Assembly: GCA_016929595.1 (NCBI GenBank)
Contig: JAFGIN010000198.1
Location: 1 to 33,621, forward strand
Length of the DNA: 33,621 bases
Direction of reading: 5' to 3'
DNA from: Chitinispirillaceae bacterium
GTDB lineage: Bacteria > Fibrobacterota > Chitinivibrionia > Chitinivibrionales > Chitinispirillaceae
Shown: in pieces, positions 6,642 to 32,053 of the stretch
Numbering within the stretch: position 1 is the first letter of the stretch
How the letters are laid out: each line of letters begins with the position of its first letter
Position numbers and translations under genes: made by a program
Notes under the pieces: generated by a model
What the model saw: only the letters and a program-made list of their open reading frames with translations
The model's database searches: none
Told to the model about the DNA's origin: nothing

Positions 6642-8810
6642 GTGAAGCAGATGTTTCGATTACCTTTTTTTCTGCTCCCTGCTATACTGATGTGTATGTT
6701 TTATATGAAGTGTGCCAATCCTGTTGATGATCCTCCACTTCAGTGGGAAACAAAAACGCAGGTTCCTGTATCAAATAAATCATTCTTTCTCAGAGAAGAA
6801 TTTGATAATCTTTTTGACTGGGATAGTATGAGCGTTGCTGATCCGCGTCCTGATGAGAAAGATACTCTTGATACACTGGTCTTTTCCATCGAACGGTTCA
6901 CCACAAATCTATTTGAGACAAGCCAGGAAGCTTTAAAGAATAATAGAATAAAAAAAGTTCTGGGACCTCTTGCAATAGTAAATTCACCACCATTTACGTT
7001 AAGTTCTCCGGTTCCTTCAAACCCAGGACAAATTTCTATTCCTTTTACCGCAAAACTGGACAGCATTTATAATGTTACCTTCTATGATACTGCAACAAAC
7101 ATACTGGCTGTGACAATTTCCAACACTTCAACAGCGACTTTAACCAACATAATAATTTCCACATCCACTCTTGGTTCGGATACTATTACGAATATTCCGC
7201 CCGGTTCTACCGCAAACGCTGAACTTCATGTCAGGGGAAAGAGCACCGGTCATACCTTCAGTATAACTCTTTCAGCCTCTAAGACAGCTGGAGCTGGAGT
7301 GGTATCATTACGAATGAGTGTTACCAACCTGACAGCATCATCAATTAAAGCGATTGATCACCTTCTCCAGTTCAAACGGGAATATAATTCCAGTTACGAA
7401 TTAACAGATACTGTTGCAATTGACTATATCGATCTGGCGGATGGTTTCTTTTTCTATGAATTTTCAAACAGTACCGATATACCTTTTATGGCCAGCCGCG
7501 AACATTACCACATGTGGATAGCACCATTTTGTAAAGGTAAAGGGATCGACAGCGTCAAAAATCTAAGTGGGGTTTCACATCTTGATTCACTTGAATCCTA
7601 TTATGGTAAGCTCAAAAATAATGGTATTACCGTTCAACCAAATACCAGTCTGGAGATGGCCCAGAGTAATCTCAGCAGCACACGTTTATTTACATTCTGG
7701 GATCCAGTTCTTAAAAAAACTGTAACGAAGGTCAGGTACATTATCGAAACCATGCCACCTCATGGTGACACTGTAACACTTCAGGCTACTGATTCTGTGT
7801 CCTTTTTGATAAGGGCTACCCATTTTAAATTTGAAGAACTTGTTGGAACTGTTATGGAACCATACGTTCGCTCAGGTGATACGCAGAAAGTATTTCTTGA
7901 TGTTCCGTGGAACCGCTCGTCACTGGATTCTCTCCGTGGCCGCTTTTTACTTCAAAGAGTGTCTGGCGAAATCACTGCCGATCCACAGCTCTCCGATAGT
8001 TTATCATATATAGACAGCATGAAAGTAAACTTTGTCATTTATTCTCCGGAATCACTTGCGGTTAAAGACTCCGCTTCATCCACATTTACGCATGTCTGCA
8101 ACGATTCCATATTCAAACGTTCTATTGACATTACAAATGTCACTAATATATTTCCCGACACAATTTGCATTGTATCAAAAATGATTATTCCATCTGGCAC
8201 AAAAATGAGAATACGCAATGATCTGTCATCATCCGATCCCGATGGCTCAAAATATATTGGACGGATGCGTATCCGACTTGATAACAAATATTTCCTTAAT
8301 TCAGATCTGGACTGGATTGTTAAAGATACGGTTATCATGGATCTGGGGTCCGGCACCTTCGAAGTGCCCGATGTATTACGATTTATTAAAAAGCTTGACG
8401 ATGCAAAAGCTTGGTTTAACGCTCTAATTGCAAATCAAACGAACCTTAACATGTATCTTCATGCATTACTGGCCCCCCGGTCAAAGATGGATGAACTGGA
8501 TTCTATCGATGCTAATCGTTTTACATTCCTTCTTAACAATCCCGACAGCGCCAGAGCCAGTGGTTTTATACATTTTCTTGGGACAGAGGGTATTTACATC
8601 CCGAAACGTGATTCTACATACGCCAATGAGGTTTTCTGGGACACCCCCGCTCTGGACAGCATAGTTTCATCAGACTCATGCAAATGGCGATGGCAGTTAC
8701 GATTTGTCCCTGGAAGCAGGGATGCTCTGCGTGATGTTGATTACCTCAAAATCAACTCATCATTGCGCGTAAGTGGAATAAACAATATGGATTCGTTATT
8801 AATATGGTAA
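6642..8810 (+). CDS. Large exported protein of unknown function paired with the OmpA porin
   Basis: A 722-residue protein not recognised as a named family. The N-terminus has a hydrophobic segment (residues 6-22) followed by Cys-24 in FYMKCANP, so it may be a lipoprotein, although the -1 Lys does not fit the canonical lipobox. The rest is rich in Ser, Thr, Asp and beta-strand-like segments, with no recognisable catalytic motif, consistent with stacked beta-sandwich domains on the periplasmic or cell-surface side. A GTG start is chosen because AGGA lies 7 bases upstream; an ATG at 6651 has poorer spacing. Its stop is 23 bases before the OmpA start, so the two are almost certainly co-transcribed and may act together in the outer membrane. 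Confidence 0.75.
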   Translation: MKQMFRLPFFLLPAILMCMFYMKCANPVDDPPLQWETKTQVPVSNKSFFLREEFDNLFDWDSMSVADPRPDEKDTLDTLVFSIERFTTNLFETSQEALKNNRIKKVLGPLAIVNSPPFTLSSPVPSNPGQISIPFTAKLDSIYNVTFYDTATNILAVTISNTSTATLTNIIISTSTLGSDTITNIPPGSTANAELHVRGKSTGHTFSITLSASKTAGAGVVSLRMSVTNLTASSIKAIDHLLQFKREYNSSYELTDTVAIDYIDLADGFFFYEFSNSTDIPFMASREHYHMWIAPFCKGKGIDSVKNLSGVSHLDSLESYYGKLKNNGITVQPNTSLEMAQSNLSSTRLFTFWDPVLKKTVTKVRYIIETMPPHGDTVTLQATDSVSFLIRATHFKFEELVGTVMEPYVRSGDTQKVFLDVPWNRSSLDSLRGRFLLQRVSGEITADPQLSDSLSYIDSMKVNFVIYSPESLAVKDSASSTFTHVCNDSIFKRSIDITNVTNIFPDTICIVSKMIIPSGTKMRIRNDLSSSDPDGSKYIGRMRIRLDNKYFLNSDLDWIVKDTVIMDLGSGTFEVPDVLRFIKKLDDAKAWFNALIANQTNLNMYLHALLAPRSKMDELDSIDANRFTFLLNNPDSARASGFIHFLGTEGIYIPKRDSTYANEVFWDTPALDSIVSSDSCKWRWQLRFVPGSRDALRDVDYLKINSSLRVSGINNMDSLLIW

Positions 8811-8833
8811 AGATTAGTTTAAGGATATATCTG

Positions 8834-11290
8834 ATGATTAGAAAAAAATTAACACTACTTTTATGCATGCTTTCGATTTCCGCGCTGGCTGAAGTCGACA
8901 ATAATCCCATAAACGCCGGTACTACTCAAGCCCGTAATTGTCTGGGACGTGCTCATGAAGCAACGCACCACAACCCGGCACTTCTTGGTGTTGACCGGGC
9001 TCCAAGAATATCTTTGACTCCGGGTCTTCAACTCGGAGTCGCCGCATGGAGCGATAAACTTAATTTGTCTATTACCAACAGATACTGGGTAGACAGTCTG
9101 AAAGAGGCTTCAGCACTCTCTTCAAAAATTCTCAGGCGAAGTTTCGATCTGGAAGGACTCTCTCCTGCTGAGGTTTCCGATAAACTTACCAAAGAGTTTG
9201 AAGGCGGTGTAAAAGTTTACTATGGGTATCACCACACGCTGCTCAGTATGGGTTTTAATCGTATCGGATTCGACATTACAACTCATATCGATGAAGAAAT
9301 GCACATTCCCGAAGCACCGCTGATGATGCTTTTTTCCCGAAATAAAGGTCTTTTGCCGGGAAACACCCTTGATTTTAATGATCTCAGACAGAATGCAATC
9401 TGGGCAACCGATTTTACATTCAGTATCGGACTACCGGTAAATGTTCCGGTACTTAACAATTTTTTCAATCTCCGTTATGGCGCAGGTGGACTCGGAGTTA
9501 AATATGTCATGGGGCATTCCATTTTAAAAGCACAGACCGAAGATGGGACGTTACACTACAACCAGACCACAAACAGCCTTGATGTCAATGCAAAAGTTCA
9601 CATTCAAACTGCCGGAATGGGTTTTCATGGTGCCTGGAATTTCGATAATCCGTTTGAAAACGGACTTCCTGTTTCCGGTCATGGAATCGGATTTGACCTC
9701 GGAGGAATCCTGTATGATAAAAACGGTACATTCTCGATTAATTTCAATAATATAGGAGTACTATTCTGGACCAATAATATCAATGAAGCTACATACCAGA
9801 TAAAAAAAGATGGTCTTGACGCATATGATATCGTCGATGGAATTGAGATTGGTGATGACCAGGACAGAAACGCACGTCTTGTAATATTTAATCGTGACGA
9901 AGGTGAATACCTGTCAATGGAAGATGATTCACTGAAAAAGGGTGATGGTTTTGTAACACCACTACCATTGGCATTAAATATCGGATACTCTTATATGTGG
10001 GACTTTTCAAAAAGCGAAAATCAGGATCGTCGATGGCTTGCTGAGTATATTAACGCCGGCGCAAATTACCGTCAGCAGTTTACGAAAAATGCAGGCCAGT
10101 CCCCTGTACCACGTCTTTCACTTGGCGCTGAAGCGGGAGTGCTTCAGGGATATTTTCCCGTCCGACTTGGATTTGTTTTTGGTGGACCGGAACGCATGGC
10201 ATCAGCAATTGGTGCCGGGCTTAATTTTAAATACGTAAGTATCAATGCTTCCTACAAAGCTGTGGGTACACCGGTATTAATTGCTAAACGCGGATGGGAA
10301 CTTGCCGGGAACATTCAGATAAACTTGGGGCTCACCGTTGATTCAGATAAAGATGGTATTGATGACAAAGATGATAACTGTCCCGAAAATCCTGAGGATA
10401 AAGATGGTTTTCAGGATGATGACGGATGTCCTGAAGATGACAATGATCAGGATGGGATCCCGGATAATGCTGACAGTTGCAAAAACATTCCCGAAGACCT
10501 CGATGGTTTCCAGGATACTGATGGGTGTCCGGACTATGATAATGATCAGGACGGCATTGCCGACAGCCTGGATACATGTCCGATGGAACCTGAGGATAAA
10601 GACAATTTCCGTGATGATGACGGATGTCCGGACCCTGACAATGATGGTGATGGAGTACCCGATGGTGATGACAAGTGCCCGCTGCTTGCTGAAGACATCG
10701 ATATGTTTGAAGATACTGACGGATGCCCGGAATTTGACAACGATAAAGATGGAGTTCCCGACTCTTTAGACAATTGCATGAATGAACCGGAGGTTTTCAA
10801 TGGATATAAAGATGATGACGGGTGCCCCGATACCCTTGTCAAGCCAACAGAAAAGGAAACGATAAAACTCAATACAAAATTACGTTCTATAAATTTTAAA
10901 ACAGGAAGCGCACAACTTATCAGTTCATCATTTGCTGCACTCGATTATATTGTTGGATTCCTTAAACAGTATCCTCACCTTCGTTATGAGATACAGGGCC
11001 ATACCGATTCACAGGGCGCAGATGAAACCAATCTTTTATTGTCCGCTGCACGTGCCAATACAGTTCGGGATTATCTGCTTTCCAAAAATGTATCGGATTC
11101 AGGTCTTATAGCGATCGGTTATGGTGAAGCGGTGCCGGTTGCGGATAATAATACGGCAAATGGACGCGCACTTAACCGCAGGGTTCAGTTCCGTATTGTA
11201 GAAACCAATGATGAGTATAGTGCATTAAAGACTAATGAAACTCTTTTTCAGGAAAAAATCAGAGCAGCCAGAATAAAGGGATACAAGTAA
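8834..11290 (+). CDS. OmpA-family outer-membrane protein with thrombospondin type 3 repeats
   Basis: An 818-residue protein in three parts. Residues 1-19 are a signal peptide. Residues 20 to about 500 form a predicted beta-barrel; the start NNPINAGTTQARNCLGRAH and following HHNPALLG resemble DUF5723/FadL-like barrels. Residues 503-667 are five exact 33-residue thrombospondin type 3 units (DxDxDGxxD plus a DGCPD end), which bind calcium and form a rigid rod. Residues about 690-805 are an OmpA C-terminal domain with GHTDSQG, LLLSAARANTVRDYLL and GRALNRRVQF, which binds peptidoglycan. The ATG at 8834 is chosen over 8804 because AAGGA precedes it and the signal peptide begins there. It likely tethers the outer membrane to the wall and works with the upstream exported protein. 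Confidence 0.88.
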   Translation: MIRKKLTLLLCMLSISALAEVDNNPINAGTTQARNCLGRAHEATHHNPALLGVDRAPRISLTPGLQLGVAAWSDKLNLSITNRYWVDSLKEASALSSKILRRSFDLEGLSPAEVSDKLTKEFEGGVKVYYGYHHTLLSMGFNRIGFDITTHIDEEMHIPEAPLMMLFSRNKGLLPGNTLDFNDLRQNAIWATDFTFSIGLPVNVPVLNNFFNLRYGAGGLGVKYVMGHSILKAQTEDGTLHYNQTTNSLDVNAKVHIQTAGMGFHGAWNFDNPFENGLPVSGHGIGFDLGGILYDKNGTFSINFNNIGVLFWTNNINEATYQIKKDGLDAYDIVDGIEIGDDQDRNARLVIFNRDEGEYLSMEDDSLKKGDGFVTPLPLALNIGYSYMWDFSKSENQDRRWLAEYINAGANYRQQFTKNAGQSPVPRLSLGAEAGVLQGYFPVRLGFVFGGPERMASAIGAGLNFKYVSINASYKAVGTPVLIAKRGWELAGNIQINLGLTVDSDKDGIDDKDDNCPENPEDKDGFQDDDGCPEDDNDQDGIPDNADSCKNIPEDLDGFQDTDGCPDYDNDQDGIADSLDTCPMEPEDKDNFRDDDGCPDPDNDGDGVPDGDDKCPLLAEDIDMFEDTDGCPEFDNDKDGVPDSLDNCMNEPEVFNGYKDDDGCPDTLVKPTEKETIKLNTKLRSINFKTGSAQLISSSFAALDYIVGFLKQYPHLRYEIQGHTDSQGADETNLLLSAARANTVRDYLLSKNVSDSGLIAIGYGEAVPVADNNTANGRALNRRVQFRIVETNDEYSALKTNETLFQEKIRAARIKGYK
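10340..10834 (+). repeat. Five 99-base coding repeats (thrombospondin type 3 units)
   Basis: Five consecutive 33-codon units with no spacers. Each begins with a DxDxDGxxD calcium loop, has a Cys near position 14, and ends in a DGCP motif. The fifth is the most divergent, with EVFNGYKDDDGCPD. The units keep exact length although their nucleotide sequences have drifted, which suggests selection for rod geometry rather than recent duplication. Confidence 0.9.
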
Positions 11291-13935: not shown

Positions 13936-14340
13936 ATGAGCAGAAACTGGAAAGAGTTGATCAGTCTGCTAAAGGGAGTGTTAGAAAAAGATGGTATTGA
14001 AATTATCCGGGCAATAATGGATCGTATATTTGAGATACATGAATTGCCCAAAAATTCAAAAACGATACAGCGAATCGAAGATTTAACTGAGGTGAAAAGT
14101 ATGCTTGAAACTAACACAAAAAACTGGGAAATTTCGGTATTCGAGAAGGGTATTGAGAAGGGTATTGAGAAGGGTATTGAGAAGGGTATTGAGAAGGGTA
14201 TTGAGAAGGGTATTGAGAAGGGTATTGAGAAGATGGTCATTAAAATGGCTCAAAATGGCATGAGCAATGCCAATATCCGAAAAATCACCGGGCTTTCACT
14301 TCAAAAGATCGCGCAGATATTAAAGAATGTGAAACTATAG
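13936..14340 (+). pseudogene. C-terminal remnant of an Rpn-family (PD-(D/E)XK) nuclease/transposase
   Basis: The 134-residue frame matches only the C-terminal third of the Rpn/PDDEXK-transposase family: a helical stretch, then a charged (KGIE)n tail and a helix-turn-helix-like end (GMSNANIRKITGLSLQKIAQ). The nuclease core found in full-length members (usually near 300 residues) is absent. The frame remains open back to 13894, directly behind the VF530 TAG stop, but that extension adds only 14 residues. No clear Shine-Dalgarno precedes the ATG. Such proteins promote recombination and spread between genomes. This copy is probably a decayed fragment, though a small expressed protein cannot be excluded. 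Confidence 0.6.
14149..14232 (+). repeat. Seven exact tandem copies of a 12-base unit
   Basis: The unit GGTATTGAGAAG is repeated seven times without change from 14149 to 14232, preceded by one degenerate copy (TATTCGAGAAG). It encodes (KGIE)7 in the Rpn remnant. The unit is a multiple of three, so copy-number change would alter protein length without a frameshift. Exact identity points to recent slippage or recombination. Confidence 0.97.
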
Positions 14341-14543: not shown

Positions 14544-16343
14544 CTAAAAAGAGTTACCAATATCAATATGAACGACAGCCAGTTGTTCTCTTCTTTTTTT
14601 GTTCAATTTTAACCCGACATCGCACCGAAGCACTGCAACCGGTGTATTAATCCGTATTCCCGGTCCTGCACTCCAGCGGATATCACGTATGACAGTTTCC
14701 GGCGAAAACGGATCTGGATGTTCATTATCTCTTATCCAGATATAACCGGCATCAGCAAACAGTGCTCCTTCAACCCACCAGAACAGTGGAATCTTTACTT
14801 CAAGAAGATGCGCGATTACACTGACATTTCCACTCAGGTTATCCCCGGCAGCATGACGCAGTCCGCTTTCAGGAAAACCTCGAATCGATTGTGACCCTCC
14901 ACCATAAAAACGCTCCTGAAGAGGTAATGAGTCGGTTTTTCCGTATGGTTCCCCCCAACCAAGTTGCAGTGATGAGGCCCACCTCACTTTTCCTGTTTTC
15001 CAGTATACACGATGATCGGTGGTGATTTTGAAAAATTCACGTGATCGCTTATCGGACAAACCGGCTACCTGAAACTGGAATTCATTATAGAACCCGCGAA
15101 CAGGATTTATCAGATCATTTCTTGTATCCCACGCCAGATCAAGACCAATACTCTGTGTGGCATTAGCATTTACATTTTTTAAAAAATCCTCCCATCGGAA
15201 TCGTAACTGGTAAGCGAATGTTGTAAAGGCCTGCTGTCCGGCAGTGATTTCGAAACGCCGGGTAAGTCCCGAATAGGTACTGGTATCGGTTCTGTTTGCA
15301 AGATATCCCGCACCATCAACTCGTAATGGAACAAGAAAGAGCCACGGAACACCATACCGTATCTCAGCATTCTGTATTCTTTGTGAAAGATTTCCAGTGA
15401 GAGTTATTTTATGTCCGATACTGAAAAGATTACCATAACTTGTCACTAAATATCCTCGGAACTTATCTGCCGTACTATACCCGGCACCAGCCTCAATACG
15501 GAAAAAGTCTATCTCATCAACAGTAACTGTCGCCGCAACTGATGTATCCTGTGCAGTACTGATTTTTGCAACTGAATCTGATAACACAGACTCAACTTTC
15601 ACATAACTGAGCAGATTTGTGCGGTAAAGACGTTTTTCGGTTTTTCTGATCTTGTTTACAGAAAGAGTATCGCCTTCTGCAAAATCGAGCTCCCGTTCAA
15701 TTATCCGGTCTTTCAACCCCTTGTTTCCTTTTACGATCACAGAATCGACTATAATACGTGGTCCCTCATTTATATTGAATTGCACAGCGACCTGGTGTCT
15801 TGTAGTATCGATATCAAGTGTGTAGGTAACAGAAACTTTTAATTTTCCTTTTTTCATAAATAGTTCACGAATTTTATCAACATCTCGAAGCAGAGCTGAA
15901 CTTAGAAGTGGTTTTTCTTTCTTTGTATTCAGCAAATTAATATCTGATGAATCGATGCATTCGTTTTTGACCTGTACCTCCTGAACAAGATATTGATCGC
16001 CTTCGGAAATTACGATTTCTATATCAACATTTCTCTCTGAAGAATCTTTGAAAACTTTGTTTTTTTCAGCAACTACATCTAAAAATCCCAACGAGTTGTA
16101 AAACCTTTCAATCGCATTAAGATCTGAATTTAGCTTGTATTCAGTAAAAAGTGTCGAAGAGAACAGTCGTGAAGGTTTCAATTCCATAACGGAGATAAGT
16201 GTCGATTTTTTATACGATTTATTTCCTATAAATGTGATATCATCAACTTTCCATCTCTTTTCTTTTGCAGATATACCAACAGCTGACAGGAGAATACCAG
16301 TGATGATAAAAATAAGAACGTTGGGAAAAGTTGATTTCATCAT
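14544..16343 (-). CDS. tamA: BamA/TamA family outer-membrane assembly protein (Omp85)
   Basis: A 599-residue Omp85 protein. Residues 1-27 are a signal peptide. About residues 28-270 hold three POTRA domains (the first starts WKVDDITFIGNKSYKK, the third contains DSVIVKGNKGLKDRIIEREL). The remainder is a 16-strand beta-barrel of the surface-antigen D15 type, with the loop-6 signature RFYGGGSQSIRGFPESG near residue 485 and a terminal Phe. Three POTRAs rather than five, and the TamB gene 3 bases upstream, favour TamA over BamA. Together TamA and TamB form an envelope-spanning complex for outer-membrane protein insertion or phospholipid transport. The start offers two adjacent ATGs with a weak Shine-Dalgarno, which suggests translational coupling to tamB. 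Confidence 0.88.
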   Translation of the reverse strand: MMKSTFPNVLIFIITGILLSAVGISAKEKRWKVDDITFIGNKSYKKSTLISVMELKPSRLFSSTLFTEYKLNSDLNAIERFYNSLGFLDVVAEKNKVFKDSSERNVDIEIVISEGDQYLVQEVQVKNECIDSSDINLLNTKKEKPLLSSALLRDVDKIRELFMKKGKLKVSVTYTLDIDTTRHQVAVQFNINEGPRIIVDSVIVKGNKGLKDRIIERELDFAEGDTLSVNKIRKTEKRLYRTNLLSYVKVESVLSDSVAKISTAQDTSVAATVTVDEIDFFRIEAGAGYSTADKFRGYLVTSYGNLFSIGHKITLTGNLSQRIQNAEIRYGVPWLFLVPLRVDGAGYLANRTDTSTYSGLTRRFEITAGQQAFTTFAYQLRFRWEDFLKNVNANATQSIGLDLAWDTRNDLINPVRGFYNEFQFQVAGLSDKRSREFFKITTDHRVYWKTGKVRWASSLQLGWGEPYGKTDSLPLQERFYGGGSQSIRGFPESGLRHAAGDNLSGNVSVIAHLLEVKIPLFWWVEGALFADAGYIWIRDNEHPDPFSPETVIRDIRWSAGPGIRINTPVAVLRCDVGLKLNKKRREQLAVVHIDIGNSF

Positions 16344-16346
16344 AAT

Positions 16347-19300
16347 TTACTTTGAATACTTAAAAATAAAATCCAGGCCATAATCATCATTATCTGCATT
16401 ACCCTTTATAAAAAACTTTCTGGTCAGTCTGAAAAGAGCTGATACTCTTCGACGGGTAAGGTCACCCAGCACTGTCTCGTAGGTTAATAATAACCGGGGA
16501 CTTATTCGTTTGGACAGAGTCAGAGTCGGTGTACTTTTAGAATCAGTATCATTCTGCCCCAGTTTGAAAATGTCACCCTGAATATCAATTCTGTCCAATC
16601 TCAGTGCCTGTTCGAGTTTCCTTGTCCCGAAGCCCAGAACACTTTGCCCGGCAAACGCTCTGAGACGTTCCCCAAGATCACCTCCAACAGATCCCAGCGG
16701 CTGTCCGAATGTCAAAATACTTATTATATCCCCCTCACTCATCATCCCCCCTTCTTCGGAGAATCTTAAAACCGGTTTATTAAGGGTACCACTTAATTCC
16801 ATATAAACAGTGTAGGTCCTGGTGTTTTCCGCTTCTTCACTTCCACCAATACCGAACACTTCAGTTTCAGCTTTCAAATTCAATAGGGGATTAAGTTCGC
16901 CGGGTTCATAGTTTCTGAATGTTCCTTCGGTAACCTCAAATCTTCTGTCAAGATAAACAACTTCACCATTATTAATGGTGACTTCACCAATGAAAGATGG
17001 ATTCTGTAGATCACCGGTTATAGAAATATCGGAACCGATTTCAAAGTATCCCAGATTCATATCCACAATCATATCCTCAAGCAAATTCACTTTTACCTGA
17101 AGTCCTATGCTTTTAAGCAATGAATCTGTCTGCTCTTTTTTGTACTGAGCAGTACTCCTGTCCTGAATAAAATCAGCTATCTTTATATCCCGATAGAATC
17201 TTCCAGCTCCAACATCAACACTTCCCTTTAGAATGTACTTTTGATTCTGTTTTAAAAAAGAGAGGTTAAATTCAGGAATGTCAGCTTCCAAAATATCAAC
17301 AACTTCGATATCGGTATTTTTTCCCTTAAAATTCAACACACAATTCTCAAGACCATTATAGTCCCATACGAGATGACCATTACCATTTATTTTACCTCTC
17401 CCCCATTTGCCATTAATTTTTTTCACCAGTACAGAATCATTTTTTAAGGCAACGTTTATGAATAACGGACCAATTTCAGGCACTATGCCCTCCGGTGCAA
17501 TAACCAGAGTATCTACACTCAAATATCCATCGAAAATCGGTAGCCCATTTCCGATTTCTATGGATCCTTTTCCATGTGCAACTCCATTTTTTATCATATT
17601 CTCCGGAAAAAAGTCAGCGACAAGTTTCAGTGGAAATTTTACAATTACGAAATTAATCCTGAGTCCTGGTTTTAACAGCAGCGAGTCGGCCTGGTCAACC
17701 GGTATTACTCCGCTTAAACTCAGCAACCCGCCGTGTGGAAGAGAGATACGGGCACTTTCACAATTGATACTATCGGCTGTTACATCTCCGATAAAAAAAG
17801 TGCTGTCTATGATACTGTTGTGATACTCTATTCTCTCTGTTGTACAGTAGTAATTTATAGAAGGTAAATTCAATCTACCTCTGATATTGGCAGTAGCATG
17901 AATGTCCTCCGCTGATATTTTTTCTTTATCATTCTTAACATGGTCTGCATCAACATTCACTTTTGCGTTAATTCTCAACCCCTTACCTCTGTCCCTTATC
18001 TCTGCGATACCATTAACAGTTCCACCCGCCTCCCATGTGCTATCGAGTACCGATGCCAATAGAGATCCAAGGTCGATCTCCTCTGCATTGAATTTCATGA
18101 TAAGCGGCCTTGAAGGACTCGCTTCGGTTGTCCAGTTATTTTTTCTTGTCAGAGGTATTGAAACACTACCTTGTATCGAATCGGATTTTCTGTGATTCAG
18201 TAAAAGAGATGCATCTGCGGTAATCAAAGAATCTGCCAGTGCAAAATACGCATTGATACTTTTAAAATTCATCTTATTATATGATGGGTGTTGTATAGAC
18301 AATTGAAGTGAACCATCAGGATTATTGAGTGCAGAACCAATATTTGCCGTTATATCCATTGTTCCCTGCAACGAATCAATTCCGGGAATCCAGCCATTTA
18401 ACAGCGACAGATCAATTGATTTCCCGTTTGCAATTAAAGAAATTGAATCATCCTGCAAACCCCCGGCTATATCAATAGTACCAGTATCTCTCCAGACATT
18501 GTTTCTATAGTGCTGAACTATGAGATTGATGTCAACGTGTTTCCTGCTTAAAATTACCTCACCATGACTCTCAAGACCGGTAGTTCCTTTAAACAGCTGC
18601 AAAATGTCGACATATATTGAATCGAGCCTGTCGATATAGAGTGTTCCTTTGATAGAATCGGCACTGTACGATGAATACACGGGGTCATATACACTTAGAG
18701 ATGCTTTAACTGCGGGTGATTTCACATCCCCGGTGAACATCAACTCACCGGTGAAATCACCCCCGAAATCGGTTGTTTTCAGAAACGATGCTATTGAATC
18801 CAATCCGGCTTGTAATGTAACTGATGAAGAATCGAAAAAATAATCATGTCCACTTTTTTCAAGAGCTATAGCAATGGAACTGCCCGATACAGTTCTCCAT
18901 GACAAAGAATCGCTTTTAACAAATAAAGAGAAGTCGGGATTTGCAATCTTTCCATTTACCGCTATATCAGCAGAAAGTGATCCGTTCACTGTTTCGTTCG
19001 AAATAATTGTACTGATAAGAGCCAGATCATTTACCACTACGTTGCCGACCCCTTTCAGATGAGTGTTATTTGTCAAATCCCCCTGTGCTCTCATCCGGTT
19101 ATTTCCAAAAAGGGCTGAAATGTTCCAGTTTTTCCGTACCAGTGATGCATCCACTGATAATGCATCGAGACCATCAGGTGTTGTATCAAAAACTACACGT
19201 GCGTCTATGGAGTCTGGAAAGCCGGTAAACGTGCAGCTTTTAACATGCACGACAGCATCCCCATTCTCCCATACCATATATTTATTAATGTTCTCCGGTA

Positions 19301-20456
19301 GTGTAATCTCTTTCAACCGTATATCATCAATATCCAGAGCAGCGCGATACTCATTGAATTGAGGTCTTGAAAACAGACGTTCAGCATGAACACTTCCCGA
19401 ACAGCTGACCCGCCCCAGATCTGTAATCGCAGAGAGTCCAAAAGACAGCAGCGAATCTCCATCATAGGAACCATCAGCGTATAATGTCGGTATATTGAAA
19501 TAAGTACTTTTCCAATCATTCCCAGTAGCCTGAAATTTGAGGACTGGTTGTTTCAATGTCCCATTCCAGGAGGCAGTTGCATGTACCCTGCCTTTATCAG
19601 TCAAAAGTGATGGAATGTATCCATATACAGCTTTGGCCGGCTTAACATCAGTAGTAATTTCTGCTGCCAAATGCCAGAAACCCTTTCTTGTAAAAGGAAT
19701 TTTTCCTCCACCGGTGATTCTGGTTGATGATCCATCGATAAAAGCATCATCTATGGTCATTCCTTTTAATGTCAACACGCCACTGGATCCGATAGTATCA
19801 ATTTTTCCTGTCCACCATGGGCTTTCATACGAGCCGTCACGTACTTCCAGATGCAGATTCATGGAATCGATCCGATGTATTTCTGCAAAAGCAACAGAGT
19901 TTCGAATCTTTCCAACAAATGTGTTCTGACTATCACTGTACGTGGCGTTGATATTGTTTACCCGTGCCGATCCGATATACAATTGCCAGTTTCCTGGCTG
20001 TTCCTTCTTTTTTTTCTTTTTTTTCTTTTGTTTGAGGGACTGAAGAAACATCGAATCGGGCATCGCAGGAATCATCAATTTTCCTGTTGGTGCAACAGTA
20101 AGAAACGCATCAATACGATTAATCCTTGCCTTATTTATAACTATTTTTTTATTAAATAAGGAAAGCAATGAAAATTTGGCGCGAACAGAATGTACGAATA
20201 TCGAATCACCATGCCCTGAGCGATCTTTTAAAACTATATTGTCAACCCGTGCGTAGGATACAAAATTCGTTGTAAATGATTCAATCGAACAATCACCTGT
20301 AAGTACACGCTCAACCTGTTCTTCAGCAAAATCAAGTATATACCTTTGTGTAAAAGGCAATGACAGTATGAGCCATAAAAGGCCAAACACAACCAGTGGC
20401 AGCATAAACAATACTGCGATTGTTCTGAGAGTGTATTTTATAAATCTATTACGCAT
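16347..20456 (-). CDS. tamB: TamB-like AsmA-family envelope-spanning protein
   Basis: A 1369-residue protein anchored by one N-terminal membrane helix (about residues 9-34) with an AsmA-like start (RVDNIVLKDRSG, INKARINRIDAFL). The long middle is beta-repeat sequence of the kind that builds a hydrophobic groove across the periplasm. The C-terminal 300 residues fit the TamB (DUF490) domain, including a GDLQNPSFIGEVTINNGEVV segment, the ILTFGQPLG segment and a closing LTYETVLGDLTRRRVSALF. It partners TamA, encoded 3 bases downstream. Its length is close to that of E. coli TamB (about 1259). An unusual run of eight lysines lies at residues 144-151, encoded by two A8 runs. Gene order is tamB then tamA, reversed from E. 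coli. Confidence 0.9.
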   Translation of the reverse strand: MRNRFIKYTLRTIAVLFMLPLVVFGLLWLILSLPFTQRYILDFAEEQVERVLTGDCSIESFTTNFVSYARVDNIVLKDRSGHGDSIFVHSVRAKFSLLSLFNKKIVINKARINRIDAFLTVAPTGKLMIPAMPDSMFLQSLKQKKKKKKKKEQPGNWQLYIGSARVNNINATYSDSQNTFVGKIRNSVAFAEIHRIDSMNLHLEVRDGSYESPWWTGKIDTIGSSGVLTLKGMTIDDAFIDGSSTRITGGGKIPFTRKGFWHLAAEITTDVKPAKAVYGYIPSLLTDKGRVHATASWNGTLKQPVLKFQATGNDWKSTYFNIPTLYADGSYDGDSLLSFGLSAITDLGRVSCSGSVHAERLFSRPQFNEYRAALDIDDIRLKEITLPENINKYMVWENGDAVVHVKSCTFTGFPDSIDARVVFDTTPDGLDALSVDASLVRKNWNISALFGNNRMRAQGDLTNNTHLKGVGNVVVNDLALISTIISNETVNGSLSADIAVNGKIANPDFSLFVKSDSLSWRTVSGSSIAIALEKSGHDYFFDSSSVTLQAGLDSIASFLKTTDFGGDFTGELMFTGDVKSPAVKASLSVYDPVYSSYSADSIKGTLYIDRLDSIYVDILQLFKGTTGLESHGEVILSRKHVDINLIVQHYRNNVWRDTGTIDIAGGLQDDSISLIANGKSIDLSLLNGWIPGIDSLQGTMDITANIGSALNNPDGSLQLSIQHPSYNKMNFKSINAYFALADSLITADASLLLNHRKSDSIQGSVSIPLTRKNNWTTEASPSRPLIMKFNAEEIDLGSLLASVLDSTWEAGGTVNGIAEIRDRGKGLRINAKVNVDADHVKNDKEKISAEDIHATANIRGRLNLPSINYYCTTERIEYHNSIIDSTFFIGDVTADSINCESARISLPHGGLLSLSGVIPVDQADSLLLKPGLRINFVIVKFPLKLVADFFPENMIKNGVAHGKGSIEIGNGLPIFDGYLSVDTLVIAPEGIVPEIGPLFINVALKNDSVLVKKINGKWGRGKINGNGHLVWDYNGLENCVLNFKGKNTDIEVVDILEADIPEFNLSFLKQNQKYILKGSVDVGAGRFYRDIKIADFIQDRSTAQYKKEQTDSLLKSIGLQVKVNLLEDMIVDMNLGYFEIGSDISITGDLQNPSFIGEVTINNGEVVYLDRRFEVTEGTFRNYEPGELNPLLNLKAETEVFGIGGSEEAENTRTYTVYMELSGTLNKPVLRFSEEGGMMSEGDIISILTFGQPLGSVGGDLGERLRAFAGQSVLGFGTRKLEQALRLDRIDIQGDIFKLGQNDTDSKSTPTLTLSKRISPRLLLTYETVLGDLTRRRVSALFRLTRKFFIKGNADNDDYGLDFIFKYSK

Positions 20457-27083: not shown

Positions 27084-28229
27084 TCAACTCCGCTCAGTCC
27101 GGGACCATGCTGCACTTTTGATTCCGCGTACATACCGGAAAAGGCCGGCGATCAGAGCAATATTCATGATAAGAAAATAGAAGCTGTGACGTGTTAAACG
27201 GATCGGAATAACTCTGGAACCTAAACCGGCAATAATGAAGATGGTTCCGGTTGCAAAAAGCATTTTATAAAGAGATACGTCTATTGTAAATGCAAGAATC
27301 CCACAGGAAAAATACCCGGTAAAAAGTGCGACAGGAGAAAACCAGCGTGTAACTTTATGCGAAACATAACAGAACGATGGCCATCCTTTAAATGGGTTTA
27401 GAAAACGTAGCAGCCAGAAGAAAGCCTGGAAATTCCCCGCTCCAATACGAACACGACGTGCGTATTCCTGTGAAGTATCACCGGTGTTCTCCTCTTCTGA
27501 TATTGAACGAGGCTCATAAATGATGCGGTAGCCCTGACTGATAACATTCATCGGAATGATAACATCATCGTTGGAATAGGAGTTTTGAGGAATAGGTTTG
27601 AATAACGATTTCCTGATAGAGTAAAAACCGCCAAAAGCAGAGATCGTGCTGTGCAGGGATCCCTCGAGAAATTTCTGATGGGATTCAAATCTTCGATAAA
27701 AGTTCTCACCATACTCTTCTTCACCAGCACTTGCATGATTTATATGTCCTGCGACACCTCCAACAGTGGGGTCAGCATAATGTGCAGTCATATATTTCAG
27801 GCAGTCTTTCTGATGTATGGTATTAGCATCCGTGAAAAGTAGTATCTCTGCATCAATGAGCGGTGCCAGACCATTGAGTACACCTGTTTTCCCACCCCGT
27901 TTTTCAGCTATCCATAAGTGCACCCTGGGATCCAGAAAATCACGAACAATTTTTTCTGAATTATCCACAGAAGCATCGGATCCTACCCAGACAGATATCC
28001 TGTCAGCCGGATAATCAAGTGAAAGGATATTTTCTATCTTTCTACGGATGACTTTTTCTTCATTGTGACAGGGAACCAGTACACCCACTGATGGGTAGTA
28101 ATTTTCCTGCGATTTTACGGGGCGCGCAAACAGATGAGAAAATACTGACAGCAACAACGGATACACCGTATATGAATAAATGACAAATATAACAGATGCC
28201 CAGAATACGAAAACAAATAAAGCGGTCAT
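27084..28229 (-). CDS. Membrane-bound family 2 glycosyltransferase
   Basis: A 381-residue GT2 enzyme of the processive-type fold (BcsA/PgaC-like). One membrane helix (residues 3-25) precedes the GT-A domain, with SVGVLVPCHNEEKVIRRKIE, GSDASVDNS, RGGKTGVLNG, the DxD-like FTDANT and the acceptor-side SNDDVIIP. The RRVRIGAGN motif stands where the Q/RxxRW motif lies in processive enzymes. Two or three C-terminal helices (about residues 290-370) follow. It likely transfers a sugar from a nucleotide donor to a lipid or polymer at the inner membrane. Its ATG overlaps the radical SAM stop by 4 bases, so the two are translationally coupled and probably act on the same molecule. Confidence 0.88.
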   Translation of the reverse strand: MTALFVFVFWASVIFVIYSYTVYPLLLSVFSHLFARPVKSQENYYPSVGVLVPCHNEEKVIRRKIENILSLDYPADRISVWVGSDASVDNSEKIVRDFLDPRVHLWIAEKRGGKTGVLNGLAPLIDAEILLFTDANTIHQKDCLKYMTAHYADPTVGGVAGHINHASAGEEEYGENFYRRFESHQKFLEGSLHSTISAFGGFYSIRKSLFKPIPQNSYSNDDVIIPMNVISQGYRIIYEPRSISEEENTGDTSQEYARRVRIGAGNFQAFFWLLRFLNPFKGWPSFCYVSHKVTRWFSPVALFTGYFSCGILAFTIDVSLYKMLFATGTIFIIAGLGSRVIPIRLTRHSFYFLIMNIALIAGLFRYVRGIKSAAWSRTERS

Positions 28230-29713
28230 TTACAGGAGCACTCTTCTTTCGGAGATCGGGCAAACAGATATTTGAACAGACTCTTCCCCCCCATTACGAT
28301 CCTCTTGGATTCAGATGGATTGGAGAGCATCTGTATGATTTTGGATATCATATAAGAGGGACGAAGATAAAATTCACGTCGGGCCCTGTTGCAAAAATCT
28401 ACCAGATATTCATACGTAAGATCCGGGTTGGATACAACCGAAGAATGAAGACCATCATCAGTAAGCCACTTACGAAAATCCTTCGTAACAATCCACCCCT
28501 TCTCCTCAAACCAGGAGTAGTCGCTCGTGCCGGGATACACCATTATCGGATAGAACTGTGCAGTGTCAGGATTGAGTCTCTTTGCAAGAGCAAGCGTTTT
28601 TCCAAGAGTATCCCTTGTCTCACCTCTGTTACCAACCATAAAACACCCATGCACCATGATCTTTGCCTTCCTGGCATCTTTCACAAACGCATGTATTTTA
28701 TCAAGTGTCAGTGATTTCTGTATATTGTCGAGTATCTGCTGGTCACCGCTTTCAAATCCAACACAAAACAGACGACAGCCCGCTTTTTTCATGAGCCTCA
28801 TCGTTTCGTAATCGACTTCAGCTCTTGAATTTGCCGACCAGGGAATTGTTGTCAAACCCGCATCGATAAGAGCCTGCGAGAATTCTCTGCACCTTTTTTT
28901 ATCTGCGGTCAAAGTATCATCTTCAATCATGATCTCTTTAATATCAGGAAAATTGTCTTTTATATACCTGAACTCACCAACAATCGACTGAATCGAACGT
29001 TTCCGGTAACGGTGTCCCTGCAGGGTCTGCGGGACAACACAATAGGTACATTTAAACGGACAACCACGCCCGGTAACTATAACAACTATCGGATGACGGC
29101 TGTGCCCATAAAAATAGGGAGAAATATCGAGAAATTTTTTATAGACAGACGAAACAAACGGAATCTCATCGAGATTCTCGATATACGGTCGACGCTCATT
29201 GCGAACGATTGTGCCGGAACTGTCCCGGAAAGCAATCCCCCGAACTGTTTTGAAACCGGAATCACTGATATCGCCCTTTCCGAAAAGTGAAGAGAGCTCC
29301 ACAAGAGTTTCGTCGTACTCGCCAAAAGCAACAGCATCAATCTTACGGTTCAATTCCAGTGTCTCTTCAGGTAGTGCTGAAACATGTACACCAACCATCA
29401 CCAGATAGAGATTATCCAAAGCATCTTTAAGTTGTGCACCCACCTCCACATCACTGTAAATACTTGGTGTAGATGTATCGAGAACAGCTATTTCAGGCTT
29501 GAATGCTGTAACTTTCCCAACTACCTCCTCAACGCTTAAGCCTGAAGCTGGAGCATCAATAAGTAGAACTTCGTGTCCACATTTCTCAAGATATCCGGCT
29601 GCGTACGCAAGCCACATCGGATAATACAATGTACCACTCTTTGCAACTGCAGGAGAACGGGACTCTCGGGAAAACTTCGGAAGAAACGGCGGGTTCAGGG
29701 CAACAATGCGCAT
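28226..29713 (-). CDS. B12-binding-domain radical SAM enzyme, HpnJ-like
   Basis: A 495-residue enzyme with an N-terminal Rossmann, cobalamin-binding-like domain (residues 1-150, without the DxHxxG motif) and a radical SAM core. The cluster motif GCPFKCTYC places Cys-218, -222 and -225 as CxxxCxxC. Stretches such as LDTSTPSIYSDV, GHRYRKRS, VGFESGDQQILDNIQK and YPGTSDYSW recall, from memory, HpnJ, which acts after a glycosyltransferase in converting a hopanoid-linked amino sugar to a cyclitol ether. No hopanoid gene is present here, so the substrate is open. The C-terminus ends ECSCK, two cysteines that may be redox-active. It sits between thioredoxin (20 bases upstream) and a GT2 gene. Confidence 0.85.
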   Translation of the reverse strand: MRIVALNPPFLPKFSRESRSPAVAKSGTLYYPMWLAYAAGYLEKCGHEVLLIDAPASGLSVEEVVGKVTAFKPEIAVLDTSTPSIYSDVEVGAQLKDALDNLYLVMVGVHVSALPEETLELNRKIDAVAFGEYDETLVELSSLFGKGDISDSGFKTVRGIAFRDSSGTIVRNERRPYIENLDEIPFVSSVYKKFLDISPYFYGHSRHPIVVIVTGRGCPFKCTYCVVPQTLQGHRYRKRSIQSIVGEFRYIKDNFPDIKEIMIEDDTLTADKKRCREFSQALIDAGLTTIPWSANSRAEVDYETMRLMKKAGCRLFCVGFESGDQQILDNIQKSLTLDKIHAFVKDARKAKIMVHGCFMVGNRGETRDTLGKTLALAKRLNPDTAQFYPIMVYPGTSDYSWFEEKGWIVTKDFRKWLTDDGLHSSVVSNPDLTYEYLVDFCNRARREFYLRPSYMISKIIQMLSNPSESKRIVMGGKSLFKYLFARSPKEECSCK

Positions 29714-29733
29714 TACCTGATATCACTCCAGTC

Positions 29734-30063
29734 TTAGATTTGAAACACTTTGGAAATTTTAGTTTTCAACGGAGCTTTAGCCAGCAAACCAGTATGCTGT
29801 TCAATAATACTACCGTTTTTGAAAAACAGAAGTGTCGGAATACTGTTAATCGAATATTGGGCAGCCGTTTGAGGGTTTGAATCGATATTGAGCTTGTAGA
29901 CCGCTACTACCCCTTTTAATTCTGTTGCCAGTTCGGTAATAATCGGAGTAAGCATTTTGCAGGGACCACACCATTCGGCCCAGAAATCAACAATTACGGG
30001 TAATGGGTTGGAAAGTACTTCCGCTGAAAATGTCTGATCGGTAACTTCATTAATGTCTGCCAT
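29734..30063 (-). CDS. trxA: Thioredoxin
   Basis: A 109-residue cytoplasmic thioredoxin with the active site FWAEWCGPCKM, the conserved cis-proline in SIPTLLFF, and a full-length fold (E. coli 109). It reduces protein disulfides using electrons from thioredoxin reductase. The second of two adjacent ATGs (30063) is preferred because AAGGAG lies 6 bases upstream. Its start overlaps the stop of the upstream exported-protein gene, and the radical SAM gene follows after 20 bases. A dedicated role in reducing the radical SAM enzyme's C-terminal CSC pair is possible but is inference; it may be the housekeeping copy. Confidence 0.95.
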   Translation of the reverse strand: MADINEVTDQTFSAEVLSNPLPVIVDFWAEWCGPCKMLTPIITELATELKGVVAVYKLNIDSNPQTAAQYSINSIPTLLFFKNGSIIEQHTGLLAKAPLKTKISKVFQI

Positions 30064-30437
30064 CATTTGCTCCTTACGGGTTCCATTGTTTCAGGATTGT
30101 TATTAATTTTTGAAATAATTGTATCATTATTTCGATTATTTTCATACTCTGACAGTAACGTTTGAATCTTTTCGTGTATTTTTTTCCACTCATCCGGTTT
30201 ATTGTAGTAGCGTGAAGTAAAACTCTGTGCAGAATCTTTATTGATTCCGCATACCTCAACAAGCTCAGAATAACGCTGAGCTCTCTGCTGATCGGTCAGA
30301 TTATTTGTACTGTTAATTAAATATATTCCGGTAATAAATTTGACATAGGAAGAATCATGAGTTTTTTCGCTCCCGGCAACTGGAGAACCGGTTAAAAAAA
30401 TCAGTATTGAGATAATAGAGCTGAATGCAAAACTCAT
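30063..30437 (-). CDS. Small exported protein, DUF4296-like
   Basis: A 124-residue protein of unknown function. The first 20 or so residues are hydrophobic and end in PVAGSEK, a likely signal peptide without a lipobox Cys. The helical remainder (KFITGIYLINSTNNLTDQQR, ELVEVCGINKDSAQSFTSRY, YNKPDEWKKIHEKIQTLL) has the layout of DUF4296-type proteins of the FCB group: a helix, a 'gi..~F..s..yY' turn and a closing helix. That likeness is from memory and weak. It opens the four-gene operon with thioredoxin, radical SAM and glycosyltransferase, and its TGA overlaps the first thioredoxin ATG. No clear promoter was recognised upstream. Confidence 0.6.
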   Translation of the reverse strand: MSFAFSSIISILIFLTGSPVAGSEKTHDSSYVKFITGIYLINSTNNLTDQQRAQRYSELVEVCGINKDSAQSFTSRYYNKPDEWKKIHEKIQTLLSEYENNRNNDTIISKINNNPETMEPVRSK

Positions 30438-30949: not shown

Positions 30950-32053
30950 ATGTCTGAAAGTACTCCAGAAAATTCAGCATCACAAACACTGAAAATCGAT
31001 GGCACAATCGAAAACCCTTATGAACCCAAACCGATTCCCATGCCGGTTGTTGGAGATAAAATCGGCCCAAATCGTGTGCAGGTACTTATTGGTGAAGGTG
31101 GAAGTGCCAATGTGTACAAAGTATGGCATGAAGGGCTCGAAGTAATAAGAGCCGTTAAAGTATTAAAAAAAGGCCATGAAAAGGAAACACGAGAACGGTT
31201 CCTTACCGAAGCGAAAATTCTTGCAGATCTCCATCATCCCAATATCGTGGAGATCCATAATATCGGTTACTACAATCAGAATATACCATTTATAGAAATG
31301 GAATTCGTTGATGGAACATCTTTAAAAAGCCTCATATCCCAACAAACCAGCCTTCCACTTACTGTTGCAATAAGTGTAGTTTATTTTATCTGCCAGGCAC
31401 TGCAATACGCACATATAAAAGATTACACCCTTTATGGAAAAGTATATAAAGGACTGATTCACCGTGATATAAAACCGGACAACATCATACTTTCCAAAGA
31501 TGGTATCATTAAACTCATGGATTTTGGGATCGCGCGTCCCAGCGAAGTAAGCCTCCATACTATTGGGCAGAAAATTATGGGGACACTGGTCTATCTCAGT
31601 CCGGAGCAGCTTAACGGAAAAACACTCGATCATCGTACCGACATATTTTCCCTTGGAACCGTATTATATGAGTTGATTACTGGTCAGAGAGCTTTTCCTC
31701 AAAAAACATTAAGTGAACTTGTTCAAAAGAAAACAAAAGGCATCTATAAGAGTCTGGATAGTTACCCAATCGATATGCCGCCCAAATTAGTGGAAATTGT
31801 TGAAAAAAGCATGTCTCTCGAACCCGAAGATCGCTATGCACATATAAGCGATTTTGGACACGAGCTTTTTTCTATACTTACCAAGATGACAGATAGTTCA
31901 CCAAATGAAATATGCTCCCGTTTTGCAGCAAATCCATCCAGTATTACAAAGTGGAAGCCGACAATCCGGACAAACGGAAAACTTGTTATTATTTGCAGTG
32001 TGGCTGCAGGTTGTATAATTGGTGGCTTGATTCTTCTGAAAATCTTATTGTAG
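30950..32053 (+). CDS. Ser/Thr protein kinase with C-terminal membrane anchor
   Basis: A 367-residue Hanks-type kinase. The glycine loop GEGGSANVYKV (48-58), lysine of AVKVLKK (K70), glutamate of FLTEAKIL (E87), HRDIKPDN (171-178), DFG (191-193) and SPE (217-219) are all present, so it should be active. A disordered proline-containing extension (residues 1-40) precedes the domain. A single C-terminal helix (about 344-367) ends the chain with only one or two residues beyond it, so there is no external sensor domain such as PASTA. It would face the cytoplasm. AAGAGG lies upstream of the ATG. It converges on an M23 peptidase gene with a 9-base overlap. Substrates are unknown. Confidence 0.93.
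   Translation: MSESTPENSASQTLKIDGTIENPYEPKPIPMPVVGDKIGPNRVQVLIGEGGSANVYKVWHEGLEVIRAVKVLKKGHEKETRERFLTEAKILADLHHPNIVEIHNIGYYNQNIPFIEMEFVDGTSLKSLISQQTSLPLTVAISVVYFICQALQYAHIKDYTLYGKVYKGLIHRDIKPDNIILSKDGIIKLMDFGIARPSEVSLHTIGQKIMGTLVYLSPEQLNGKTLDHRTDIFSLGTVLYELITGQRAFPQKTLSELVQKKTKGIYKSLDSYPIDMPPKLVEIVEKSMSLEPEDRYAHISDFGHELFSILTKMTDSSPNEICSRFAANPSSITKWKPTIRTNGKLVIICSVAAGCIIGGLILLKILL

Follow-up and report, generated by a model that had tools for sequence, protein, structure and literature searches.

An HpnJ-like radical SAM protein encoded beside a membrane glycosyltransferase: a candidate modifier of lipid-linked envelope sugars

HpnJ is a ring-contracting radical S-adenosylmethionine (radical SAM) enzyme which produces a cyclitol ether following the actions of HpnI and HpnK, with its substrate a glucosamine attached to a membrane lipid (PMC8590665; PMC12583986). 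AprD4, from apramycin biosynthesis, is a radical SAM 1,2-diol dehydratase, with AprD3 serving as its reductase partner (PMC5461906). Considered here is a protein with likenesses to both, encoded within 33,621 nucleotides of DNA from a Chitinispirillaceae bacterium (contig JAFGIN010000198.1; this whole stretch is ‘the window’), which is part of a draft genome of 6.6 Mb that is 95% complete. Its gene is the third of a four-gene operon (27084–30437), consisting, in order, of a short open reading frame (ORF124), a thioredoxin, the radical SAM protein, and a family 2 glycosyltransferase (GT2). We put at roughly 60% the probability that this radical SAM protein is an enzyme modifying the sugar of a lipid-linked envelope, that is, surface glycan. 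To our knowledge, HpnJ itself is known solely from hopanoids.

The radical SAM protein (495 amino acids; 28226–29713, with all operon features here being on the minus strand) is identical in domain architecture to HpnJ. An N-terminal B12-binding (Rossmann) domain, residues 21–140 (29294–29653; PF02310, 61 bits), with an invariant His110 in its GxH motif, is accompanied by a radical SAM core, residues 212–376 (28586–29080; PF04055, 70.6 bits). The latter contains the [4Fe-4S] motif CPFKCTYC, i.e., CxxxCxxC (Cys218, Cys222, and Cys225; 29039–29062), which is invariant in the clade described below, in HpnJ, and in BchE. Along with a matching fold, these features place the protein among radical SAM enzymes possessing a B12-binding domain. 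Its best NCBIfam match is TIGR03471 (HpnJ), at 419.6 bits versus a cut-off of 577.6, and it is 38–39% identical to true HpnJ over a full-length alignment. A preliminary description of this DNA had pointed to an HpnJ likeness, and HpnJ is indeed the nearest curated family, though with a score below that cut-off. The cut-off is informative because, in the same scan, a true Brocadiaceae HpnJ scores 745.5 bits, compared with 375.8 for the Lawsonia member of the clade and 394.4 for one in Nitrospirota. The next match is BchE (TIGR02026; 174.6 bits, cut-off 481), with the ladderane-associated TIGR04072 also found among further matches, and the libraries searched hold no curated family dedicated to the window clade.

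A maximum-likelihood tree of 72 rows places the window protein among 50 rows that form one clade (support 100/98), with Fibrobacterota supplying the nearest named records. Annotated HpnJ forms a separate clade (100/100), with which the 745.5-bit Brocadiaceae protein groups. The window clade is probably the sister of true HpnJ, with the node that joins the two weakly supported (88/30). The protein, that is, does not fall within an unrelated radical SAM family but instead beside HpnJ. Judged by score and tree, it resembles HpnJ but is not HpnJ, belonging instead to a widely conserved clade of its own.

Approximately 25 residues are specific to this clade versus HpnJ, and two of these are cysteines. 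Cys357 (28643–28645) is invariant in the clade, with HpnJ having Thr or Ala at this position, and is seen as well in both HpnJ-like paralogues of the window genome. Cys441 (28391–28393) likewise is invariant in the clade, but is lacking in HpnJ, in BchE, and in almost every further relative examined, i.e., it is nearly clade-specific. In radical SAM epimerases such as NeoN, a cysteine is the hydrogen donor.

The AlphaFold2 model of the radical SAM protein has a mean confidence (pLDDT) of 92.2. Its best fold match in the PDB is AprD4 with the aminosugar paromamine bound (template-modeling score, TM, 0.70–0.73), and a sequence profile also puts AprD4 first among solved structures (130.9 bits). 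AprD4 acts on an aminosugar glycoside, and the nearest family (HpnJ) and the nearest solved fold are therefore both sugar-acting, consistent with the glycan role. The window protein nevertheless is only 22–23% identical to AprD4, reaches only 85.1 bits against the AprD4 family NF033070 (cut-off 500), and has no AprD3-type reductase identified in its operon. Following AprD4 among fold matches are the cobalamin methylases MgmA, TsrM, OxsB, and CysS; we know of no report of AprD4 as a cobalamin enzyme. BchE, the anaerobic Mg-protoporphyrin cyclase, has in common with the window protein the B12-binding and radical SAM domains, the GxH motif, and many core residues, but is distant in the tree, and the window protein has no chlorophyll context.

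The operon's GT2 (381 amino acids; 27084–28229) is a membrane glycosyltransferase carrying Glycos_transf_2 domains (PF00535) on a minimal cellulose-synthase-like fold. Its nearest solved relative is the transmembrane GT2 of Pyrobaculum calidifontis, PcManGT (6yv7; 61.8 bits, fold TM 0.72–0.73), which possesses this same minimal fold and few membrane helices, but is archaeal and just 23% identical. PcManGT is a proposed actor in lipid-linked N-glycan assembly. PMC8993221 states, however, that experiments have not confirmed it as a mannosyltransferase. With PgaC/IcaA and other processive synthases the operon GT2 shares a GT-A fold and C-terminal membrane helices, but it obtains only 56.6 of 422 bits against the PgaC/IcaA family. 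Particularly, in an alignment of 48 GT2s and 3 HpnI it presents RRVRI (27444–27458) where processive enzymes have QxxRW, with R258, R261, and I262 of that motif invariant in aligned members of what we call subfamily A. Identity as a processive polymer synthase is rejected on that basis. Of the earlier wording, ‘processive, polymer or lipid-linked’, the first part consequently fails, given RRVRI and PcManGT as the nearest relative, but the last survives, being favored by gene neighbors and by retention of the cellulose-synthase-like fold, due to which ‘lipid-linked’ suits this GT2 better than does ‘polymer’.

The layout as previously described, with overlaps and a 20-base gap, is confirmed by the open reading frame coordinates. 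ORF124 (30063–30437) and the thioredoxin (29734–30066) share a 4-nucleotide ATGA overlap, 20 nucleotides then separate the thioredoxin from the radical SAM gene, and the latter joins the GT2 gene via a second 4-nucleotide ATGA overlap. A Ser/Thr kinase-like gene (30950–32053) is divergent from the operon and flagellar genes, as recognized by eye, lie downstream of it. Promoter and terminator scans returned sites no more frequent than in shuffled sequence. The gene arrangement nonetheless is not by chance, because most Chitinispirillia-type loci repeat the thioredoxin, radical SAM, GT2 order, and other phyla likewise have radical SAM followed by GT2.

That recurrence was counted over clade loci, 65 of them informative for GT2 position and 67 for other glycan genes within a six-gene reach. 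A GT2 gene is directly downstream of the radical SAM gene in 39 of the 65, loci which are not independent, with Fibrobacterota making up most subfamily-A cases, and is at +2 or +3 in five more; overlaps of 4 or 8 bases are present in many. The pairing of these genes which the preliminary description relied upon is therefore seen among homologues as well, i.e., directly so in Fibrobacterota, Nitrospirota, Thermodesulfobacteriota, Fermentibacterota, Elusimicrobiota, Stahlbacteria, WOR-3, Riflebacteria, and others. These downstream GT2s are of two subfamilies: A, to which the window GT2 belongs (approximately 380 amino acids, RRxRI type; Fibrobacterota, Stahlbacteria, WOR-3, and further metagenome-assembled genomes, MAGs), and B (approximately 330 amino acids; Nitrospirota, Thermodesulfobacteriota, and others). 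In 34 of the 67 loci another glycan-assembly gene is no more than six genes away, whether a family 9 (GT9) heptosyltransferase, bactoprenyl sugar transferase, epimerase, family 4 glycosyltransferase (GT4), or capsule gene. GT9 alone accounts for 18 loci, whereas GT9 occurs eight times in the window genome, from which its chance presence within six genes is estimated for about 2% of loci. Genes of lipid A acyltransferase type are within that reach in six loci, which is likewise counted in favor of the envelope-glycan role. In the near relatives L047, L048, and L051 (L numbers denote loci) a GT9 gene precedes the same four-gene array, and the flanks of L047 and L048 match those of the window except for the extra GT9 immediately upstream of ORF124.

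Both HpnJ-like paralogues of the window genome reside among glycosyltransferases as well, which supports the glycan role. One (L136:4101-13612, on C22; 354 bits to HpnJ, 38% identical to the window protein) neighbors GT4, GT2s, an STT3/PglB-type oligosaccharyltransferase, and a polysaccharide flippase, which suggests radical modification of a protein-linked glycan. The other (L137:3514-8129, on C94) is found among GT4, GT9, and GT2-like genes.

A match to the radical SAM protein at E ≤ 1e-40 is present in 91 of 101 genomes (its own plus relatives), most with a single orthologue of 46–74% identity and a few with weaker paralogues only; in Fibrobacter proper and its sister family (f8, f11) nearly every genome has the gene. 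Scanning of genome contigs revealed orthologues of 43–72% identity in Nitrospirota, Thermodesulfobacteriota, CSSED10-310, Raymondbacteria, Stahlbacteria, WOR-3, Elusimicrobiota, Riflebacteria, Fermentibacterota, Planctomycetota, Nitrospinota, and two Diapherotrites (archaeal) MAGs. A plasmid search yielded a further orthologue, 47% identical, on a Lawsonia plasmid among SIS, HAD-IIIA, GHMP kinase, GalE, GT2, and methyltransferase genes, a set that includes heptose-type sugar activation. There, on plasmid 1 of Lawsonia intracellularis (L139:5151-19753), the orthologue shares one run of genes with those heptose-type sugar genes, another radical SAM gene, and five genes for class I methyltransferases. 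In Nitrospirota (L083, L084, L087, L089, L093, and L103) the order is constant, that is, a response-regulator-like gene, GT9, a DUF362-ferredoxin, the radical SAM gene, and then GT2; the DUF362 protein, just ahead of the radical SAM protein, could be its electron donor. Among the open-access papers searched, none was found that ties an HpnJ-like radical SAM enzyme to lipopolysaccharide or O-antigen clusters, or that ties the gene on the Lawsonia plasmid to lipopolysaccharide.

From gene order, phylogeny, neighbors, predicted fold, and residue conservation we infer a substrate, an order of steps, a chemistry, and a role for thioredoxin. The operon's product or products would make or modify part of a lipid-linked cell-envelope glycan; a membrane-linked sugar as substrate, as already proposed, fits both the neighbors and the GT2 fold. 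From its anchorage in the inner membrane, the GT2 would attach a single sugar to an acceptor that is lipid-linked. The radical SAM protein, presumably holding its [4Fe-4S] cluster via Cys218, Cys222, and Cys225, would then cleave SAM, with the resulting 5'-deoxyadenosyl radical abstracting hydrogen from one of the sugar carbons in the glycan or lipid-sugar, and the sugar radical being resolved to an altered sugar. A redox-neutral or thiol-assisted outcome is favored, because the clade has the invariant Cys357 and Cys441 and HpnJ lacks both. As to what that altered sugar may be, an epimer is tentatively placed first though less likely than not, ring contraction as with HpnJ is only slightly less likely, dehydration or deoxygenation as with AprD4 is unlikely, and methylation is unlikelier still.

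The thioredoxin (110 amino acids; WCGPC) is of ordinary type, scoring 123.8 bits for TIGR01068 against a cut-off of 96.8; with it included, the genome has five thioredoxin-like matches. It could re-reduce Cys357 and Cys441 or may be general housekeeping, with reduction of the invariant cysteines possible but speculative. The preliminary description had it serving a C-terminal Cys-Ser-Cys pair. That pair does exist (residues 492–494; 28232–28240), but its segment is disordered (pLDDT <50) and not conserved, and linkage to thioredoxin is confined to a single Fibrobacterota branch. That is, of the 21 Chitinispirillia-type loci (L047-L066, L071), 19 have thioredoxin just upstream of the radical SAM gene, but no other clade locus does, and the proposed service consequently is not upheld. 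ORF124 has no match in the family libraries; it bears, by eye, an apparent signal peptide, is fast-evolving, and remains operon-linked, with copies 22–35% identical at the same place in several relatives.

Could this nonetheless be true HpnJ, producing the cyclitol ether of hopanoids in a genome that has its hopanoid genes elsewhere? HpnJ is the best curated match and the probable sister clade, but that reading is largely refuted and a hopanoid role is very unlikely. Along with the low score as compared with that of Brocadiaceae HpnJ, squalene-hopene cyclase was not found anywhere in the draft genome, nor was any match to HpnH above cut-off, which extends the earlier remark that no hopanoid gene is seen from the window to the whole draft. 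Among the 101 genomes the cyclase has one strong and two weak matches, and in 42 other genomes that carry the clade, matches exceed 200 bits in two and 100 bits in none of the remaining 40. The Brocadiaceae genome with true HpnJ, by contrast, does have the cyclase, at 488 bits. The operon GT2, too, is other than HpnI, the GT2 with which HpnJ works, as had been claimed (27.5 bits, cut-off 310), and HpnK is not among the four operon proteins, the only part of the genome searched for it. A hopanoid role was rejected given the missing cyclase and HpnH and the tree position apart from HpnJ.

A cobalamin-dependent radical SAM methyltransferase, methylating a surface glycan or its lipid, would account for the B12-binding domain, for the invariant His110, and for the fold matches to methylases, and cobalamin probably is used, as cobalamin riboswitches occur in 57 of 61 genomes. 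Yet HpnJ and then BchE, the nearest by sequence, and AprD4, the top fold, are not methyltransferases, and methylation would seem to give no reason for Cys357 and Cys441; this reading is improbable. Held to be no more probable is action on the lipid carrier, i.e., on an acyl or isoprenoid chain rather than on the sugar, perhaps resembling TIGR04072 proteins. The presence of TIGR04072 and BchE among next matches points that way, as do the lipid A acyltransferase-type genes in six loci and, in f11 genomes, an LPG_synthase_TM protein encoded nearby (L129:4725-5735, L130:4309-5319), but neighbors are mostly sugar-handling, and both HpnJ and AprD4, as closest family and best fold, have sugar substrates. 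A protein of the LPG_synthase_TM kind also adjoins HpnI/J/K in Burkholderiaceae, and may be a flippase-like partner common to both settings. Less probable again is a loose neighborhood, with a general thioredoxin next to a radical SAM–GT2 pair of unrelated tasks. The restriction of thioredoxin and ORF124 linkage to Chitinispirillia-type genomes, and the four other thioredoxin-like matches, would permit this; recurrent radical SAM–GT2 coupling in many phyla, and a thioredoxin, radical SAM, GT2 order that is conserved across genera, speak against it.

Modification of a lipid-linked envelope sugar remains preferred, with several observations weighing against it. The principal weakness of the argument is that, in the Fibrobacter and sister-family (f8, f11) loci examined, no glycosyltransferase is directly beside the radical SAM gene. 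More generally, 21 of the 65 informative loci have no GT2 within three genes, some of these being gene-calling misses, e.g., L055. There is no match, in addition, to any known sugar structure, and neighbors alone cannot separate a sugar, lipid, or protein substrate of the same pathway.

A broader proposition is that this widespread family either inverts one carbon of a sugar or rearranges a sugar ring, e.g., into a carbocycle, in lipid-linked envelope glycans, such that carbocyclic or radical-epimerized surface sugars are common yet unnoticed in many anaerobic phyla. That we consider quite doubtful as stated in full. If the clade does act on surface glycans, however, then anaerobes would have a so far overlooked radical SAM remodeling of their envelope sugars, spread across considerably more than a dozen phyla of bacteria along with two archaeal MAGs and nearly all of the Fibrobacterota genomes examined, and HpnJ might be a branch recruited out of glycan biosynthesis. 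With cultivated carriers (Fibrobacter, Lawsonia, possibly Geobacter strains), the question is directly testable.

Elsewhere in the window, a TamA-like Omp85/POTRA protein adjoins a TamB-domain protein (14544–20456), an open reading frame carries tandem EKGI repeats with a 12-nucleotide unit (13936–14340), and a large protein has, by eye, DxDxDG calcium-type repeats along with an OmpA-like C-terminus (8804–11290).

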